Positions 14,030 to 27,272 of a DNA stretch of 36,839 bases are shown piece after piece. This stretch comes from Acidobacteriota bacterium. Its GTDB lineage: Bacteria > Acidobacteriota > Thermoanaerobaculia > UBA5066 > Gp7-AA6. The stretch is from assembly GCA_003222385.1 (NCBI GenBank), contig QHVV01000107.1:1-36839 (forward strand), in the 5' to 3' direction. Position 1 is the first letter of the stretch, and each line of letters opens with the position of its first letter. The position numbers and the translations under genes are program-made. Under the pieces are notes generated by a model, which worked only from the letters and a program-made list of their open reading frames with translations, was not told the origin of the DNA and made no database searches.

Positions 14030-14094
14030 ACATCCGGACTTAGCCGACCCGCCCGGTCGCGCGCTCGCTTCGCGGCGACCTCGAATTGGCCGCT

Positions 14095-14100
14095 TATACT
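14095..14100 (+). promoter_or_regulatory. -10 box upstream of carB
   Basis: TATACT lies 15 nt before the ATG at 14116, predicting a leader of roughly 9 nt with no Shine-Dalgarno sequence. The box has the same sequence as that of argS. It implies carB has its own promoter, independent of the upstream propeller gene. No attenuator-like hairpins are seen in the 86-bp gap. Confidence 0.45.
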
Positions 14101-14115
14101 TCGCGCGGCCTCTCG

Positions 14116-17318
<3,203 letters not shown>

Positions 17319-17322
<4 letters not shown>

Positions 17323-19253
17323 GCGCCGTCCTCGAGGCGGAAGGGAATCTCCTCGCGCCGAGAGCGCCCCGGCCGGCGACTCCGGTCCGGCTCCTCCTCT
17401 TCGCGCTCGCTTTGACCGGCAGCGCCGTCGTGCTCGGGGTCGGCTTTCCCCGCGGCGCTCCCGACCGGCTGCCGGTTCTCTTGATCGCGCTCGCGCTGGC
17501 GCTTGACGCGGTCGTCCGGCCGACCGCCGCGATCCGCGACTTCTGCTTCGCTTTTCCGGTCGCGGGCTTTTTGGCGGGCCTCTCCGGCGCCACCGATCCG
17601 GTCGCATGGCCGGTGCTCCTGTTCGGAGGCCTGGCGGCGGGATGGACGTTCCGCTTCCTCTACGACTTCGAGAGCGTGCCCGATCCCTCCCTTCTCGACT
17701 CTCCCCTCCGAGCGCTCGTTACGTTGTGGATCCTCGCGACGGCGGTTGCGGTCGCGAACGCGAAGACCGTGTGGGCGCTCGTCCGTCGCCTGACCGGTCG
17801 CACGGTGAATGGCCAGGGTCTGCCCGAAGCCGCCGCCGTCAGAGAGACCGTGCTGGCGCTCGCGATCCTCGTGGCCGGAGCGGCGTTCTTCTTCCTGCTG
17901 CGGCGAGCCGGAGAGGAGACGCGGGCGAGAGCGGCCCGCGCGGCGCTCCTCGGCACTGCGCTGTCGGCTTTCGTGGCGGTTCTCCAGGCCGCCGGCGTGG
18001 GCGCGGCGGAGGCGCGGCCATTTTGGAAGCTCACGGGACGGCTGTCCGGCGGCGCGACCGACCCCAACGCGCTCGGAATCCTCTGCGGCCTGGCGATCCC
18101 TGTCTGCGTCGCGCTCGCGATTCGCCGCGACCGGCCGGGATGGGCGCTGCCCGCGCTCCTGCCGCTCCCGATCGGGCTCGCGCTCTCCGGATCGAGGAGC
18201 GGGTTCCTGATGGCGGTCCTGGGCTCCGGTGCGGTCGTCGCGCTCGCGCCCGTCGGCCGGCGTCTGCGGACGGCGGCCGCGCTCGCCGCGGTCGCGACGC
18301 TGGTCGTTCTGATCGGAACCGCGCTCACTCGAAGCTCGGCCGGGGACGTCGGCGATCGGCTCGGTCAGCTCTTCCGGTCGTCGTTGTCGCTCGAAGACCG
18401 TGCTTCTTCGCGGCCGATCCTGTGGCGCGCCGCGCTGCGGCTCTTTGCCGAGTCGCCGCTCGCGGGGGGAGGGCTCGGCAGCTTCGCGTGGCGGCTGCCG
18501 GACCTCGCCGGCCCGGACCGCGCGCGGCTGGCTCTTCGCGACAACCCGGGCAGCGCCTACCTCCAGGCGCTGGCGGAGTCCGGGATCGCGGGAGTCCTGC
18601 TCACCCTGGCGTTCGTCCTCGCGCTCGGGAGAGAAGCCTTTGCGCGCGCGAGAGACCCGGTCGTGTCGGGAGCGGCCGCGGCGGTCCTCGCGTTTCTGGT
18701 CGTCCTCGTCGTGGGCTCGCATTGGCTCGCGCCGGAGGTCGCATTCTTCTTTTTCCTGCTGGCCGCGTTCGTCGGGACCGGCGGTCGGCGTTTGCGTGAG
18801 GCTGCCCGCACTCGGACGCGGATCGCCCTCGTCGTCCTCTACGGGATCTTCGCGGCTTTCGCGGTCTCCGCGACCGGAGATCCGGCTGCGACGTTCCGCT
18901 ACGCGAATCGGATCGGCTTCTACGATCGCGAGGTCGGCCCGGGCGGCGCTTTCCGCTGGACGCGGCGCCGGTTCGCGCTTCGGGTCGGTCGAGAAAACCC
19001 GGAGCGGATTCTGCTCGCGAACTACTCGCCCGACGGAAAGCCGGTCGAGATCGATCTGCGCGCCGACGAGGGACCGGTCCTCTTCCGCCGCACGCTCGCG
19101 CCGGGCGCCGCCACCCGGCTGACCCTCTGGGCGGGAGGCCGTCCGCGCGTGTTCCGGTTCGAGCTGTCGCGGTCGTTCGTCCCAAAGCGTCGGGGCCTGT
19201 CGGACCGGCGGGAGCTCGGCGTCGTCGCCGTGCTGCCGGAGGACGAACGTTGA
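17319..19253 (+). CDS. O-antigen ligase-like polytopic membrane protein
   Basis: 644-residue membrane protein with about a dozen hydrophobic segments and the Wzy_C/WaaL features of O-antigen ligases. These are the [16 protein letters not shown] segment, the large loop beginning [19 protein letters not shown], and [21 protein letters not shown]. Such enzymes attach polysaccharide or glycan from undecaprenyl carriers to lipid A or to proteins. A C-terminal stretch of about 110 residues after the last helix is non-membrane and strand-rich (GREN then [31 protein letters not shown]). It probably forms an extracytoplasmic domain. GTG 17319 overlaps the carB stop. No other glycan-cluster genes are adjacent here; the GT-C-like genes lie about 4 kb on. 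Ligase versus polymerase cannot be decided from sequence. Confidence 0.82.
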
Positions 19254-20444: not shown

Positions 20445-22576
20445 CGCCGAAATCCTGTCACAAAGGAGCTGCAGGCCCAGAAGTTAGACTCCAATGTGGC
20501 AAGTGGAGACCTGACCCTCAATGTGGCAAGTGGAGACCTGACCCCATTAAGAAATACGTACTCCGGACGGAGGTCGGAGCCCGGACCTATCGGGTCGACT
20601 ACGACCGGGAGCTGAACGAAGAGCAGAAAGCGGTCGTGCTCGCGGGCGGGGGGCCGATCCTCGTCATCGCGGGCGCGGGGTCGGGCAAGACACGCACGCT
20701 CGTCTACCGGGTCGCGCGGCTGATCGAATCGGGCACCGACCCGTCCCGCATCATGCTGCTGACGTTCACAAACAAGGCGGCCCGGGAGATGCTCCGTCGG
20801 GTCGAGATGCTCCTCTCGGTCGACACGCGCCGGCTCATGGGAGGCACGTTCCACTCGGTCGGGAGCCGGCTCCTGCGGCGGTTCGGGAGCCGCATCGGGC
20901 TCTCTCCCAACTTCACGATCCTGGACGAAGAGGACTCCCGCGAGGTTTTCGATGCGGCGACGTCCGACTTGAAGATCCAGACGCTCGAGAAACGCTTCCC
21001 CAAGGGGGATGTCCTCTCCGACCTCTACTCCTTCACCATCAACACCGGCCGCCGTTTCCCCGAGGTCCTGGCGGAGCGTGCCCCGCACTTTCTGCCGCTC
21101 GAAGAGGAGATCGTGAGGGTCTTCCAGCGATACCAGGAGCGCAAACGGACCGGCAACGCGTGCGACTACGACGACCTCCTGCTCTCCTGGAAACGTCTGC
21201 TCTCGGAGGTCCCCGAAATCGCGGCCCAATTCGCCGCCTCCTACGATCACGTCCTCGTCGACGAGTACCAGGACACCAACCAGCTGCAGGGCGACATCGT
21301 CGACGGCATGGGAAAGATCCGCCGCAACGTCGCGGTCGTCGGCGACGATGCGCAGGCGATCTACTCGTTCCGTGGCGCGTCCTTCGCGAACATCCTCGGT
21401 TTCCCGGAGCGATACCCGGACGCGAAGGTGTTCCGTCTGACTTTGAACTATCGCTCAACCCCCGAGATCCTGGCGCTCGCCAACTCCTCGATCTCGCACA
21501 ACCAGAAGCAGTTCGAGAAAGACCTTCGCGCCTCGCGCGGCGAGGGGCCGCTGCCCGCGGTCGTCCCGCTGGCCGACGTCTCCGAGCAGGCGCGCTTCAT
21601 CGCGCAGCGGCTGCTCGAGTGGCACGACGAGGGGGACGCGCTCGCGGACCTCGCGGTTCTCTACCGCGCCCACTACCAGGCGCTCGAGCTGCAGATCGAG
21701 CTGACCCGACGCGGCATCCCGTACGAGATCCGCTCCGGGACCCGCTTCTTCGAGCAGCGTCACGTCAAGGACGTACTCGCGTTCCTGAAGGTCGTCGTCA
21801 ACCCGAAAGACGAGCTCTCCTGGAAGCGGGCTCTCAAGATTTTTCCGCGGATCGGGGAGCGCTCCGCCTCGACCGTCTGGGCGGCGATCGCGGGATCACC
21901 GGATCCCCTGGTGGCCTTCCGCGCGCTCGGGGAGCCGGCCTCTCTGCCGCGCGGCGCGGACGCGGCCTTGAAGCCGTTTCGCTCGCTCGTGACCCGCCTC
22001 GACTCGCCGTCCCTGCGTTCGTCTCCGGCGGAAGCGATCCGGTTCGTGGTCGAGTCGGTCTATGCCGACTACGCGCGCGCGAAGTTTCCCAACGGGGGGG
22101 CGCGGCTGGACGATCTCGAGCAGCTCGCCCAGTTTGCGCAACAGTACGAGTCGCTCCCCGGTTTTCTCGAGGAGGTCACGCTCTTCAACGAGCTGTCGGG
22201 CGAAGACGTCGCCGCGGGGGAGCCGTCGGATGATCGGGTCGTCCTGTCTTCGGTTCACCAGGCCAAGGGTCTCGAGTGGAGCCGGATCGTCGTGATGTGG
22301 CTTTCGGAAGGGCGTTTTCCGAGCTACCGCGCGGCCACGACCGAGGAAGGGGTCGAAGAGGAGCGCCGCCTCTTCTACGTCGCGGTCACGCGGGCGAAGA
22401 ACGAGGTCGCGTTCACGTATCCGATGCTCGCCCGCGACCGGTATGGAGTGGATGTCATCCTAGAGCCGTCGCGGTTCGTGTCGGAGCTGCCCGAAGACGT
22501 CTCGGAGCGCTGGACCGTCGAGCTCGAGGCGGAAGTCGGAGCCGAGGAGCCGAAGAAACCGGAGCCCGTGAACTAG
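20438..22576 (+). CDS. UvrD/PcrA-family superfamily 1A DNA helicase
   Basis: ATP-dependent 3'-5' DNA helicase of the UvrD/Rep group. Motifs in order are Q (ELNEEQKAVV), I (AGAGSGKTRTL), Ia (TFTNKAAREM), II (VDEYQDTN), III (VVGDDAQAIYSFRGA), IV (LTLNYRST), V (SSVHQAKGLEW) and VI (RLFYVAVTRAKNE). There is no nuclease or long C-terminal extension. The start is unclear. ATG 20438 is the only in-frame canonical start before the motifs, but it overlaps the aroC start and translates through a tandem repeat into QCGKWRPDP twice, which looks non-native. The credible protein begins at IKKYVLRTE, where ATT (20546-20548) stands at the position expected for a start codon. A GGAG inside the repeat lies 10 nt upstream of that ATT. 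From ATT the length would be 676 residues. Confidence 0.9.
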   Translation: MSSPKSCHKGAAGPEVRLQCGKWRPDPQCGKWRPDPIKKYVLRTEVGARTYRVDYDRELNEEQKAVVLAGGGPILVIAGAGSGKTRTLVYRVARLIESGTDPSRIMLLTFTNKAAREMLRRVEMLLSVDTRRLMGGTFHSVGSRLLRRFGSRIGLSPNFTILDEEDSREVFDAATSDLKIQTLEKRFPKGDVLSDLYSFTINTGRRFPEVLAERAPHFLPLEEEIVRVFQRYQERKRTGNACDYDDLLLSWKRLLSEVPEIAAQFAASYDHVLVDEYQDTNQLQGDIVDGMGKIRRNVAVVGDDAQAIYSFRGASFANILGFPERYPDAKVFRLTLNYRSTPEILALANSSISHNQKQFEKDLRASRGEGPLPAVVPLADVSEQARFIAQRLLEWHDEGDALADLAVLYRAHYQALELQIELTRRGIPYEIRSGTRFFEQRHVKDVLAFLKVVVNPKDELSWKRALKIFPRIGERSASTVWAAIAGSPDPLVAFRALGEPASLPRGADAALKPFRSLVTRLDSPSLRSSPAEAIRFVVESVYADYARAKFPNGGARLDDLEQLAQFAQQYESLPGFLEEVTLFNELSGEDVAAGEPSDDRVVLSSVHQAKGLEWSRIVVMWLSEGRFPSYRAATTEEGVEEERRLFYVAVTRAKNEVAFTYPMLARDRYGVDVILEPSRFVSELPEDVSERWTVELEAEVGAEEPKKPEPVN
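20492..20544 (+). repeat. Two tandem copies of a 26-bp repeat (period 27)
   Basis: Units at 20492-20517 and 20519-20544 are identical over 26 bases and begin CAATGTGGCAAGTGGAGACC and end TGACCC, separated by one base. They lie between the divergent aroC and helicase genes, directly abutting the helicase's first conserved codons. There are no further copies and no regular spacers, so this is not a CRISPR array. The ACCTGACCCC ending resembles dispersed intergenic repeats I recall near REP-associated (RAYT) transposases; that link is from memory and unverified. Confidence 0.8.
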
Positions 22577-22625: not shown

Positions 22626-23153
22626 ATGAGAGCCGACGATCGCTACGCCGCGAGCTGCCGGGGAGCGCTCGAATCCCGACAGCGCGATGTCATGTCCTTC
22701 GTCGACAACGGGATGTCGGGAATGTCGGCGCGGCTCGAGAAGACGCTCATCCGGCTGCCCGGAGGGCACTATCTGCTGGGCCTGGGACCCTACAACGCGG
22801 GGCTCGTCCGGCTCGACTTCGAGGAGCTCCTGATCGGCCGCGAGGTGCCGGAGTTCATCGGCGTCGGGATGCCGGTTTCGGGATTCCGCGTCTCGTCTCC
22901 GGACGCCTTCCTGAATACGGAGGTTTCCCGCCTGCACGCCAAGCTCGTCCGTCGGGTGGCAACCGACGGGCCGCACTACCTCCTCGTCGACATGCGCTCG
23001 ACGTGCGGGACGTATCTGAACGGCGATCCGGTCCCCCAGCCCGACGACCTCGGAGGCGTTTCGGAAGAGGACTGCGCCCGTCCGCTGACCTCCGGAGACT
23101 TCTTCTCACTCGGCCCTTCGGCCGTCAATCTCTTCCTGTTCTTCCGGAAGTGA
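22626..23153 (+). CDS. FHA-domain protein
   Basis: 175-residue cytoplasmic protein with a forkhead-associated (phosphothreonine-binding) domain. Visible are the GR pair in LLIGREVPEF, the SRLHAKLV signature (serine/histidine contacts), the core LLVDMRSTCGTYLNGDPV and the closing strands PLTSGDFFSLGPSAVNLFLF. The insert between GR and SRLHA is longer than usual (about 30 residues). The N-terminus (RADDRYAASCRGALESRQRD) is helical and unassigned. ATG 22626 is used; ATG 22611 and the methionine before SFVDNGM are alternatives. The stop overlaps the start of a GT-C-like membrane protein (GTGA), suggesting phospho-dependent control linked to envelope glycan synthesis. No Ser/Thr kinase gene lies in the window. 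Confidence 0.8.
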   Translation: MRADDRYAASCRGALESRQRDVMSFVDNGMSGMSARLEKTLIRLPGGHYLLGLGPYNAGLVRLDFEELLIGREVPEFIGVGMPVSGFRVSSPDAFLNTEVSRLHAKLVRRVATDGPHYLLVDMRSTCGTYLNGDPVPQPDDLGGVSEEDCARPLTSGDFFSLGPSAVNLFLFFRK

Positions 23154-24940
23154 CCCCTCCGGGGCGACCCGGGAAAGCCGCGGCACTCGTCGTCGGCGGC
23201 AGCGTCTCGTTCTTCGTCGCGGTCAACCTCGTGAGCTCGATCCGGCCGGCGCTGCTGGCGGACCCCGACCCCGCCTGGGCAGTCCCGCGGCTCTTCCTCT
23301 GGCTCTTTCTCGTGAGCGCGGTGGCCTCCTCCGGCGGACTCGCGGCGGGCGCCTTCTTTCTGTGGAGCCGGTCGGGACCGGGGCGCGTCTCTCCCGGAGC
23401 GCTTCCCCTCTCCCCGCCGGCGACCGTGGCGCTCGCCGCGACGGCTCTCGCGGCCGGCGTCTTCCTGCGCTCGGTCTGGCTGTCGACGCTGCCGTTTCCG
23501 TTCATGGGGGACGAGGTGAACCTGATCGGTCCGACGCTCGCTCTCTCCGGGACGTGGCGGGACTTCGCGAATTCGATCCGGGCGATTCCCTTCGGGGTCC
23601 CGGATCCGCACGAGGTCATCGGTGTCCTCTACCTGCGGCTCTTCCGCGGCGTCCTCGAGGTCTTCGGCCCCACGATCACGGGTCTCCGGTTTCCATCGCT
23701 CGCGGGCGGCGTGCTCTCCCTGGTCACCGGGACTCTGCTGGGCCGGGCGCTGCTGCCCCGGGGAGGCGGAGCGCTCGCGGCGGCGGCGCTGGCCGGCCTG
23801 CGGTGGCACCTGATCCTGTCGCGCAACGGCTGGCACCTGATCCTGGTCACGGCGATGGCGGACGCCGCGACGCTCCTCCTGCTCCGGTCGCGCCGGACCG
23901 GCCGGGCGCTTCCCGCCGTCGCCGCGGGACTGGTCCTCGGAATCGCCGCGCACTTCCACATCGCGGCCTGGGTGCCGGCGGCCGCTCTTCTCGCGTTTGC
24001 CGCCTGGCCCGCGCGTCCGGAGGAAGAGTCGCGGACGCGCACGCGCCGGCTGCTTGCCTGCACCACCGCCCTCCTTCTGGCGGCCGCCCCCCTTTTCCTG
24101 CTGCGCGGCGGACGTGCCTCCGGGTACCTCGCGCGGACCGCGCGCCACAACGTTTTCCTGGAGATGCGGTACACGAAGTCCCTGCTGCCGCCCTTCGCCG
24201 TGGCCGCCGATTCGCTCGCGGCGCCGTGGTTCCTGCCCGAATCGGCCGGGTGGATCGACCTGCCCGGCCGCTCCCGGCTGGGATGGGTGATCGGCGTGCC
24301 GGTTGCCCTCGCTCTTTCCCGCGCGCTCGCGTTTCCGAAGGAAGAGCTCTCCCTGCTGCTCCTTCTCCAGGCGGGTGCCGCTCTCGCCGCCGCCGTCCTC
24401 GGCGGCCAGGCCGGCCACCCGCACGGATTTCGATTCGGTTACCTGACGACGTTGACCGCGGTCGCCGCCGCCGCGGGAATTCTTCAGATCGTCTCGTCCG
24501 CTCCGCCCCGCTGGCGCCGGGCCGCGGCGCTCGCTGCGATCGCGCTCGTGGCGTGGAGCGGCGCCCGGGCGGCGCGGGACGCGCTGCTCGTTTGGCCGTC
24601 CGCACGCTCCACCTTCGACGGCTATCACGGCGAAGACACCTTGATCGGACGCGCGGCGGCCCGCTGGGACAGTCGGGGAAGCGTCCGGGTCGAGCGCGGG
24701 CTCGGACGTTCGGACGCCACGGTCGACACAGTCCGCCGCTTCCGGCTGGATCCGGACTGGAAGGTTCGGACGAGTTCGGCGCCTCAGGCGGAACTCCGCG
24801 GTCCCCCCTTCCGCAGGCAGTTTCGCGTGGCGCGGCCGGGGGCGCAGGCGGAAGCGGGGGAGCGGCTCGTCGAGCGAGTGCGCGACGGGTGGGGCCGTGA
24901 GTGGGCCCTCGTCTTCGGGCGGGCGGTCCGGGGATCGTGA
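23150..24940 (+). CDS. GT-C-like (ArnT/PMT-type) integral membrane glycosyltransferase, copy 1
   Basis: 596-residue polytopic membrane protein with more than ten hydrophobic segments. After the first helices comes an extracytoplasmic loop with an acidic pair in FPFMGDEVNLIGP, the position where GT-C enzymes (GT39/ArnT/PMT-like) carry a catalytic aspartate. Also visible are WRDFANSIRAIPFG, GRALLPRGGGALAAAALAGL, and a C-terminal soluble tail ending ERLVERVRDGWGREWALVFG. GTG 23150 overlaps the FHA stop, and the stop overlaps the next gene (GTGA). The neighbouring gene is a full-length paralogue. Transfer of a lipid-linked sugar to lipid or protein is inferred from the fold; donor and acceptor are unknown. 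Confidence 0.78.
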   Translation: MTPPGRPGKAAALVVGGSVSFFVAVNLVSSIRPALLADPDPAWAVPRLFLWLFLVSAVASSGGLAAGAFFLWSRSGPGRVSPGALPLSPPATVALAATALAAGVFLRSVWLSTLPFPFMGDEVNLIGPTLALSGTWRDFANSIRAIPFGVPDPHEVIGVLYLRLFRGVLEVFGPTITGLRFPSLAGGVLSLVTGTLLGRALLPRGGGALAAAALAGLRWHLILSRNGWHLILVTAMADAATLLLLRSRRTGRALPAVAAGLVLGIAAHFHIAAWVPAAALLAFAAWPARPEEESRTRTRRLLACTTALLLAAAPLFLLRGGRASGYLARTARHNVFLEMRYTKSLLPPFAVAADSLAAPWFLPESAGWIDLPGRSRLGWVIGVPVALALSRALAFPKEELSLLLLLQAGAALAAAVLGGQAGHPHGFRFGYLTTLTAVAAAAGILQIVSSAPPRWRRAAALAAIALVAWSGARAARDALLVWPSARSTFDGYHGEDTLIGRAAARWDSRGSVRVERGLGRSDATVDTVRRFRLDPDWKVRTSSAPQAELRGPPFRRQFRVARPGAQAEAGERLVERVRDGWGREWALVFGRAVRGS

Positions 24941-26721
24941 GGACTCCTCGCTCCACAGCGCGGCCCGAGATGCGCGCAGCTGTCTGCTTCGGCGCCGCCG
25001 TCTCCTGCGTCGTGGCCGTGCGAAGTGTCGAGGCGATCCGGCCGGCGCTGCTCCTGGACCCGGACCCCGCCTGGATCGCGGCCCGATTGGTTCTCTGGAT
25101 CGGGCTCCTTTCAGCGACCGTCGCCGCGGGTGGGCTCGCGGCGGCCGTCTTTTTCCTGTGCGCCCGGAGCCGCTTCGCGCCGGATGCGCCGTATCCGCTG
25201 CCGTTCCGGCGGGTTACGCTCGCGCTGCTGGCCATCGGCGCTCTCGCGGCCGGAGCGCTCTTCCGGTTCGCGTGGCTGGACACTCTTCCGGTCCCCCTCT
25301 GGCTGGACGACGTCTCGCTCATCTCGCCGGCTCTTGCGCTCGAAGGAAGCTGGCGCGACTTCGCCAACTCGATCCGTCCGGCGCCCTACGGGGTCGCGCA
25401 GCCGTTCGGCAGCGTGGGAGTGCTCTACCTCGAGTTCTACCAGCTCTGCCTGGAGCTGGCGGGGACGACGGTTTTCGGCGTGCGGCTGCCGTCCGCGCTC
25501 GCCGGAGCGGCCTCGGTCGGAACCGCGATGTTGCTCGGACGCGCGCTGCTTCCGCGGGGAGGCAGCGTCCTCGCGGGGCTATCGCTCGCCGGGATGCGGT
25601 GGAGTCTGATCCTGTCGCGATGGGGCTGGAACGCGATCGTGCTCGCGCCCGTGCTGGACGTCGCCGCGCTCCTTCTCCTCGCGGCGCGCCGGCGATGGAG
25701 CCTCGCGCTCGCGGCCCTCGCGGGCGTCGTCGCGGGGATCTCGACCCACATCTATCTCGCGGCCTGGGTGGGATCGGCGGCGCTCTTCTTACTCGCGCTG
25801 TGGCCTCCGGCGCCCGAGCAGGGAAGGCCGTGGCGGCCCGCCCTGGCTCTGGCCTTCGCGATCGGCCTCCTGCTCGCAGCGGCGCCGATTTTTCTCCTCC
25901 GGAAAGGAAGGACGTCTCCCTACTTCGCGCGCGCTTCCGACCACAACGTCGTCCTCGAGGTCCGCCGGGCGCGCTCGATCCTTCCGTTTCTGGGGGTCGC
26001 CGCCGATGCGCTTTCCTCTCCCTGGTTCCTGCCGGACCCGACTCCGCGGCACGACCTTCCCGGACACTCGCGCCTCGGCTGGATCGGGGGCGCGCTCGTG
26101 GCGGTCTCCTTCGCGTACGCGCTTCTCCGTCCCCGCCGCGACTTCTCCGCCTATCTCCTGGCGCAGGCGGCCGCCGCCTTCGCGGCGACGGTCGCCGGAG
26201 GTCGCGCGACCGTGCCCAATGGTTACCGCTTCGGATACCTGTCGAACGCCGCCGCCGTCGCGATCGCCGGAGGTGCTCTTCTCGTCCTCGCGATGTTTCG
26301 CGCGTCGCGGCGCCCGTCCGCCGCCATCGCTCTGACGGGACTCCTCGCGGTCGCGTCTTTCGCGGGCGCGCGCGACGCGATCATCCGCTGGGCCGGCTCG
26401 CGGACCACGTTCGACGATTTCTGGGGACAGGACACGCTCCTGGCGCGCGCCGCGGCGCGGTGGGACCTCTACGGAACCGTCGACCTCGATCCGGCGCTCG
26501 GAGAGAACACGCTCACGATGGAGGGGGCGCGCAAATATCGACTCGATCCGTGGCGCGATCGCCTCGGAAGAGATGCGCCGGAAGGAGAACCTCGACGGAA
26601 GTTCCGGATCGTCGCGCCGAGGTCGCGGCCCCGCGCCGGGGAGAGGCTCGTCGAACGGGTCGGAGACGCCTGGGGAAGAGAGTGGGGCTGGATCTACGGC
26701 CGGCGGACCGGAGGAACCTAG
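24937..26721 (+). CDS. GT-C-like integral membrane glycosyltransferase, copy 2
   Basis: 594-residue tandem paralogue of the preceding gene. It shares AIRPALLxDPDPAW near the N-terminus, GSWRDFANSIR (GTWRDFANSIR in copy 1), GRALLPRGG, the NGYRFGYLSNAAAVA region and the C-terminal GERLVERVGDAWGREWGWIY. In the putative catalytic loop it has WLDDVSLISP where copy 1 has MGDEVNLIGP, so the acidic pair is Asp-Asp, not Asp-Glu. GTG 24937 overlaps the upstream stop. The two copies are probably a duplication with altered specificity, or subunits working together. It contains a rare TTA codon (25790-25792). It runs tail-to-tail into, and overlaps by 4 bp, the cysteine-dioxygenase-like gene on the other strand. 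Confidence 0.78.
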   Translation: MRTPRSTARPEMRAAVCFGAAVSCVVAVRSVEAIRPALLLDPDPAWIAARLVLWIGLLSATVAAGGLAAAVFFLCARSRFAPDAPYPLPFRRVTLALLAIGALAAGALFRFAWLDTLPVPLWLDDVSLISPALALEGSWRDFANSIRPAPYGVAQPFGSVGVLYLEFYQLCLELAGTTVFGVRLPSALAGAASVGTAMLLGRALLPRGGSVLAGLSLAGMRWSLILSRWGWNAIVLAPVLDVAALLLLAARRRWSLALAALAGVVAGISTHIYLAAWVGSAALFLLALWPPAPEQGRPWRPALALAFAIGLLLAAAPIFLLRKGRTSPYFARASDHNVVLEVRRARSILPFLGVAADALSSPWFLPDPTPRHDLPGHSRLGWIGGALVAVSFAYALLRPRRDFSAYLLAQAAAAFAATVAGGRATVPNGYRFGYLSNAAAVAIAGGALLVLAMFRASRRPSAAIALTGLLAVASFAGARDAIIRWAGSRTTFDDFWGQDTLLARAAARWDLYGTVDLDPALGENTLTMEGARKYRLDPWRDRLGRDAPEGEPRRKFRIVAPRSRPRAGERLVERVGDAWGREWGWIYGRRTGGT

Positions 26722-27272
26722 GCGACCGGCGCGGCCGTCGTTCTCGCGGCGACCGCCCGCGCGAGGACCTCGTCGCCCACCTCGAAGGTCGACGCGCGAA
26801 TCTCCTGGAACCCTTCGCGCGGATCCCAGATCCCCATCGTGCGCAGCGGCGGCCGGTAGATGTGAAGGGAGACGGACCGGGAGCGCGGCATCAGGCGGTG
26901 GAGAACGGTCGGGCCGGTCTCGGAGAGATCTCCTTCCGGGCGCACGCGCGAGTCGGCCAGTTGTGGAAGCTCCTTCGGCACCGTGAACCGCTCCTCGACG
27001 ACCGTGCCGGACAGGATGACCATTCCCCCGAGCACGCCCCGGTGATCGTGAATCGGGGTGATCTGGCCGGCTTCCCAGCCGATCACCATGACCTCCCAGT
27101 CTTCCCAGAGGAGAACCGGGTGGCGGACGTAGTGGTGGGGGTCGAAGCGGACGCGTTCGAGGTACCGATCGGCTTCCGACGCCAGGCACCGGGCCAGGCT
27201 GGCGGGAGTCGGACGCTCCGGTCCGACGGCGTGTTCGGCGAGGACCTCGCGCACGATCTCGGAGAAGTTCAT
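26718..27272 (-). CDS. Cysteine dioxygenase-like cupin
   Basis: 184-residue cupin of the cysteine dioxygenase type I family, which oxidises cysteine (or a related thiol) to a sulfinate with non-haem iron. The metal-binding segment reads GQITPIHDHRGVLGGM, with iron ligands expected at His75 and His77; a third histidine lies in SLHIYRPP. The strand GWEAGQITPIHDH and the closing GIWDPREGF are typical. Glycine rather than cysteine follows the HDH motif (GVLGG), as in bacterial enzymes without the Cys-Tyr crosslink. ATG 27272 lies 8 nt after a -10-like TAAAAT. It diverges from the dehydrogenase gene. Substrate (cysteine versus 3-mercaptopropionate or other) is undecided. Confidence 0.85.
   Translation of the reverse strand: MNFSEIVREVLAEHAVGPERPTPASLARCLASEADRYLERVRFDPHHYVRHPVLLWEDWEVMVIGWEAGQITPIHDHRGVLGGMVILSGTVVEERFTVPKELPQLADSRVRPEGDLSETGPTVLHRLMPRSRSVSLHIYRPPLRTMGIWDPREGFQEIRASTFEVGDEVLARAVAARTTAAPVA

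Follow-up and report, generated by a model that had tools for sequence, protein, structure and literature searches.

A translationally coupled FHA-domain gene and an old tandem of GT-C-like membrane protein genes in an Acidobacteriota lineage

The window analysed here is the whole 36,839-nucleotide stretch of Acidobacteriota contig QHVV01000107.1. It contains a run of three genes (Table 1) encoding a stand-alone FHA-domain protein followed by two GT-C-like membrane proteins, termed GT-C1 and GT-C2. There is a 4-nt overlap at each junction, and GTG is the start codon of both GT-C1 and GT-C2. The GTGA at both junctions bears out the translational coupling that an earlier note had proposed for this locus. 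The FHA start is backed by orthologues that open with the same Asp-Asp. The FHA/GT-C1 overlap is also present in the related genome G001, and hence in two of the three family genomes. In the third, G002, FHA and GT-C are separated by a 94-nt gap containing an 18-nt tandem repeat (three copies found, L026:6555-6640), and its two GT-Cs are joined by an ATGA overlap. Homologous genes occur in the same order in two other genera, which argues that the three ORFs are not chance frames. A promoter scan found none, and a single terminator-like site was located within GT-C2, such sites being fewer than in shuffles. The coupled three-gene operon is real. At its downstream end, GT-C2 and a convergent cysteine-dioxygenase-like gene (26718-27272, reverse strand) have four end bases in common, 26718-26721.

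Table 1. Features of the three-gene run (positions are those of the window)
Feature	Positions	Strand	Remarks
Stand-alone FHA-domain protein gene	22626..23153	+	175 aa; PF00498; orthologues 68-81% identical
GT-C1, GT-C-like membrane protein, DE type (MGDEVNL)	23150..24940	+	596 aa
GT-C2, GT-C-like membrane protein, DD type (WLDDVSL)	24937..26721	+	594 aa
GTGA, FHA stop/GT-C1 start (translational coupling)	23150..23153	+	read from sequence
GTGA, GT-C1 stop/GT-C2 start	24937..24940	+	read from sequence
Acidic-pair codons D121-E122, GT-C1	23510..23515	+	columns 121 and 122 acidic in 7/7 homologues
Acidic-pair codons D124-D125, GT-C2	25306..25311	+	columns equivalent to the GT-C1 pair

The first gene does encode a stand-alone FHA protein, as had been claimed: its product matches PF00498 at 28.9 bits, above the curated cut-off of 20.7 bits (E 1.6e-6), with residues 97-141 aligned to profile positions 15-57 of 67. 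The orthologue at L027 scores 32.9 bits with the same profile, and the protein has a conserved N-terminal region of ∼ 60 residues.

GT-C1 and GT-C2 are paralogues of full length that share 49% identity across 592 columns. Both carry a signal for PMT_2 (PF13231), at 18.8 and 20.1 bits, respectively, below the cut-off of 26.1 bits; the profile is matched at E 1 or better by all seven homologues of the alignment used here (termed A3: the two window copies and five others), and the homologue from genome G007, at 36.7 bits, is the only one of the five non-window proteins to exceed the cut-off. A structural model of GT-C1, built with five sequences, has a mean pLDDT of 58.4 and falls below 50 in the acidic loop. 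A Foldseek search of the PDB with this model gave no match at E <= 0.001 (best E 0.039), and a PDB sequence search with a GT-C profile returned chance matches only. In a VIA-align 2 comparison, ranks 1-30 were all occupied by GT-C-fold chains, before the first unrelated row, with Z values of 6.6-10.8 (best Z 10.8, rmsd 5.2 over 269), to be read in the knowledge that helical models may reach Z 13 through common arrangement. These chains are GPI mannosyltransferase I, the GPI-transamidase PIG-U-like subunit, Pmt4, AftD and PimE, and further ALG3, ALG6, STT3/AglB/PglB, AftA, ArnT and Emb. A GT-C-type fold is indicated in a middling model, aligned over residues ∼ 86-489, with the start of the core varying between residues 86 and 154.

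Together, the identity, the PMT_2 signal and the VIA-align ranking uphold the description of the two proteins as full-length GT-C-like paralogues, and the GT-C folds and the G007 score speak for glycosyltransferases rather than for some other membrane protein family. As judged from sequence and model, GT-C1 and GT-C2 are GT-C enzymes ordinary in kind, with putative activity. Like the PMT_2/GT39-like GT-Cs (ArnT, PMT, PimE, ALG3/6), they carry two neighbouring acidic residues in the first large loop that follows a membrane helix and give a PMT_2 signal, here below the cut-off, and the predicted fold of residues ∼ 86-489 resembles that of these enzymes. The GT-C1 model is set apart from them by two extra predicted helices ahead of the core, at residues 7-31 and 41-73, and by a C-terminal domain of ∼ 110 residues. 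A total of 13 helices would bring the C-terminal domain to the periplasmic side, where the acidic loop would also lie; Lys/Arg counts fail to separate the membrane sides (39/265 inside, 238/1767 outside).

The difference between the two acidic pairs, MGDEVNL and WLDDVSL, is present in the sequence as the earlier note had described it. Across the seven homologues, column 121 reads D,D,D,D,D,E,D and column 122 reads E,D,E,E,D,D,D, such that both acidic positions are filled in every protein, in the first large predicted extracytoplasmic loop. The portions of PMC7801869 available give a DE pair as the active-site form of ArnT (D55/E56 in 5ezm_A, D77/E78 in 6p25_A) and also of Pmt1, and a DD pair as that of 7bvf_A (D281/D282; an EmbA-EmbB entry) and of the TMTCs. 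Equating the window pair with ArnT D55/E56 is based on helix order and on that partial source, with the membrane side predicted. Since both DE and DD are active forms in these accounts, and all seven homologues are acidic at both positions, the difference would mark two lineages and not a loss of function; the suggestion of a catalytic and a non-catalytic partner is therefore not borne out. Indeed, in a tree of the seven proteins the three DE members form a clade (support 99/99), and a tree constrained to pair the two window copies is worse by 40.91 log-likelihood units (p-AU 0.000213), which rules out a recent tandem duplication. When five distant outgroup rows were included, branches were long and most forks stayed unresolved, and the seven-row tree omits those rows. 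By sequence comparison, the GT-C duplication is old.

The FHA gene is found in all three family genomes examined, followed by one or two GT-Cs. However, the block aroC-uvrD-FHA-GT-C-CDO-IDH-PhoH is syntenic throughout the family (apart from FHA, GT-C and CDO, the genes were named by eye), and so the FHA-GT-C adjacency is not singled out within it. Between family genomes, FHA is 78-82% identical, similar to UvrD (79-82%), AroC (74-79%) and IDH (78-84%), whereas CDO is 57-71% and the GT-Cs only 47-56% identical. An FHA protein evolving at a UvrD-like pace beside fast GT-Cs suggests that the former is a conserved housekeeping adaptor and the latter are fast-changing enzymes.

In the sister family f3 (G004 and G006, two of two genomes), the gene for an FHA orthologue with 68% identity stands directly ahead of secD-secF. 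G006 has the operon-like run yajC-VIT1-FHA-secD-secF (L027:1885-6724), each member of which was confirmed by Pfam, and the G004 contig begins just before FHA. A search of these two genomes with the window GT-Cs gave no match at E 0.001; both carry other PMT_2 proteins. Nothing relevant was found in the region after uvrD in the sister family. Two of the three f1 genomes have yajC immediately ahead of secD, with no FHA gene at this place, and the ORF scan of the third (L052) contained no yajC. The anticipated conservation of an FHA and GT-C neighbourhood thus holds as adjacency in the three family genomes, but the whole block is conserved alongside it and the sister family differs. The slow tempo of FHA and its placement beside secDF favour a role wider than these GT-Cs.

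The distribution of this FHA protein is narrow. Strong orthologue matches were obtained in 5 of the 60 genomes searched, the window genome included, plus one weak match, and in a phylum sample, where part of the first-look candidates were scored, orthologues were present in at least 3 of 396 genomes at E 1e-10. A scan of genome contigs returned two loci, which belong to two family genomes already identified, and the viral contigs and plasmids searched held no relative. Close GT-C homologues exist apart from any such FHA gene, on contig C154 of the window genome itself and in G007.

The explanation that we consider somewhat better than an even bet is that the co-translated trio comprises a slow, lineage-restricted FHA adaptor ahead of a fast-evolving, old GT-C tandem that depends on polyprenyl-phosphate sugars. 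On the periplasmic face, both GT-Cs would draw their sugar from a lipid carrier, using the acidic pair after the predicted third membrane helix, and they may serve two different envelope acceptors or add two different sugars; the neighbouring genes of the block gave no hint of the acceptor. The FHA protein could act as a cytoplasmic adaptor for a Ser/Thr-kinase target other than the GT-C itself. Its placement before the GT-Cs would then give co-expression rather than dedicated control, as suggested by the orthologue beside secDF in the sister family.

The strongest competitor, unlikely as we judge it to be, is a dedicated module, as suggested by the earlier note, in which FHA would recognize a phosphothreonine made by a kinase, either on the two GT-Cs or next to them, and thereby switch envelope glycosylation. 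The FHA/GT-C1 coupling in two of the three family genomes would also be expected from such a module, the adjacency is present in all three, and the window genome has 56 Pkinase matches. There is also a precedent in the binding of phosphorylated MviN by FhaA, according to the accessible part of PMC11898655. In mycobacteria, as here, an FHA protein is linked to a polytopic envelope-building membrane protein in a genome rich in Ser/Thr kinases. However, MviN has a phosphorylated pseudokinase domain (same partial source), whereas in the window GT-Cs the predicted cytoplasmic loops are all short and lack conserved Thr. Five columns (175, 193, 488, 497 and 524) hold Thr in at least four of the five FHA-linked GT-Cs, and none of the five lies in a predicted cytoplasmic loop, the topology being that of the middling model. 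The FHA domain is likewise tied to a membrane protein in the ABC exporter Rv1747, but there, in the available text of PMC5549992, the FHA domains lie within the transporter itself, whereas the window FHA is a separate gene whose site is altered at Asn and perhaps also at Gly.

Gene order adds little to the case for such a module. The window genome has 9 FHA and 23 PMT_2 matches, and by listed places the C42 FHA gene is its only FHA gene adjoining a PMT_2 gene. When gene order was randomized (9 FHA and 25 PMT_2 genes as input), at least one FHA/PMT_2 adjacency arose in ∼ 12% of trials, and an FHA gene directly upstream on the same strand in ∼ 3%, which makes adjacency alone weak evidence. The level given by this simulation is ∼ 0.13 adjacent FHA genes per genome. 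Further against the module are the synteny of the entire surrounding block, the sister-family FHA orthologue for which no close GT-C homologue was found, the GT-C copies on C154 and in G007 that have no FHA, and the atypical FHA site discussed below. A literature search by titles and abstract openings, with subscription papers mostly outside reach, found no report of a module of FHA and a glycosyltransferase or GT-C. Control of the GT-Cs by FHA is accordingly a possibility to which operon placement points, and a doubtful one.

A still less probable alternative is an obligate GT-C1/GT-C2 heterodimer, or a pair in which one member is dead and serves to regulate its partner. The two genes are in tandem, coupled and of similar length, the DE clade retains its own motif, and Pmt1-Pmt2 and EmbA-EmbB are precedents for GT-C pairs, EmbA-EmbB also being named among the Foldseek rows for the GT-C1 model. 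The copy numbers speak against this: the window encodes one DE and one DD protein and contig C154 of the same genome another DE copy, but G001 has a single DE copy, G002 one DD and one ED copy, both of the DD/ED group, and G007 one DD copy, which argues that the pair is not obligate. A dead partner is moreover at odds with the acidic residues retained at both positions in all seven homologues.

About as improbable, or slightly more so, is a purely structural role for the FHA-like protein, as a scaffold that has lost phosphothreonine binding and that lies beside GT-C or SecDF by accident. In an alignment with KAPP, C127 stands opposite the Asn of the NGT motif, and Cys127 is found in all five FHA orthologues; in Rad53 the equivalent residue before GT, Asn107, is implicated in a peptide-backbone contact, as described in the available portion of PMC5549992. 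The substitution means that the protein is classed as an FHA-domain protein by score and is not a proven phosphothreonine reader. The candidate site Arg is either R88 or R72, both invariant in five of five orthologues. R88 sits 13 residues before S101, close to the Arg-to-Ser spacing of 15 in Rad53 and 14 in Rv1747 (PMC5549992, in part), and is preceded by Phe, not Gly, in all five. Against a loss of binding, Arg, S101 and H104 are kept in all five orthologues, and G71-R72, 29 residues upstream of S101, could be the true Gly-Arg with an insertion behind it; the FHA structure model (pLDDT 39.3) is too poor for use in deciding this. By its sequence, the FHA binding site is atypical.

In the widest reading, which is highly speculative, the FHA adaptor would link Ser/Thr-kinase signals to the stage at which exported proteins pass through the membrane and are given sugars. 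The GT-C and secD-secF placements could then both belong to a single kinase-gated machine for export-linked protein glycosylation, given that O-mannosylation of bacterial proteins was for a long time believed to be coupled to Sec, a view since questioned (PMC11727336, in the part available).

What the locus contributes is an FHA family that is small, narrow in distribution and altered at its binding site, together with a diverged GT-C family in which two types of acidic pair are both old. Were it true that FHA governs the GT-Cs or SecDF, bacterial Ser/Thr kinases would have a new route for setting surface glycosylation or export, and a stand-alone Acidobacteria FHA protein would gain a testable role.

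Some further features were observed around these genes. At L030:1511-5559, two tandem genes for 613-aa secreted-looking paralogues are followed by the third GT-C copy and by another PMT_2 gene, and the first of the two paralogues had no Pfam match at E 0.001. In the window, positions 17217-19253 (forward strand) encode an O-antigen-ligase-like protein of 678 aa (Wzy_C, 52.8 bits), the listed start of which overlaps the end of the preceding ORF at 14086-17322 (carB by eye). Finally, two copies of a ∼ 28-nt direct repeat are located at window positions ∼ 20490-20550, at the start of the uvrD-like ORF.
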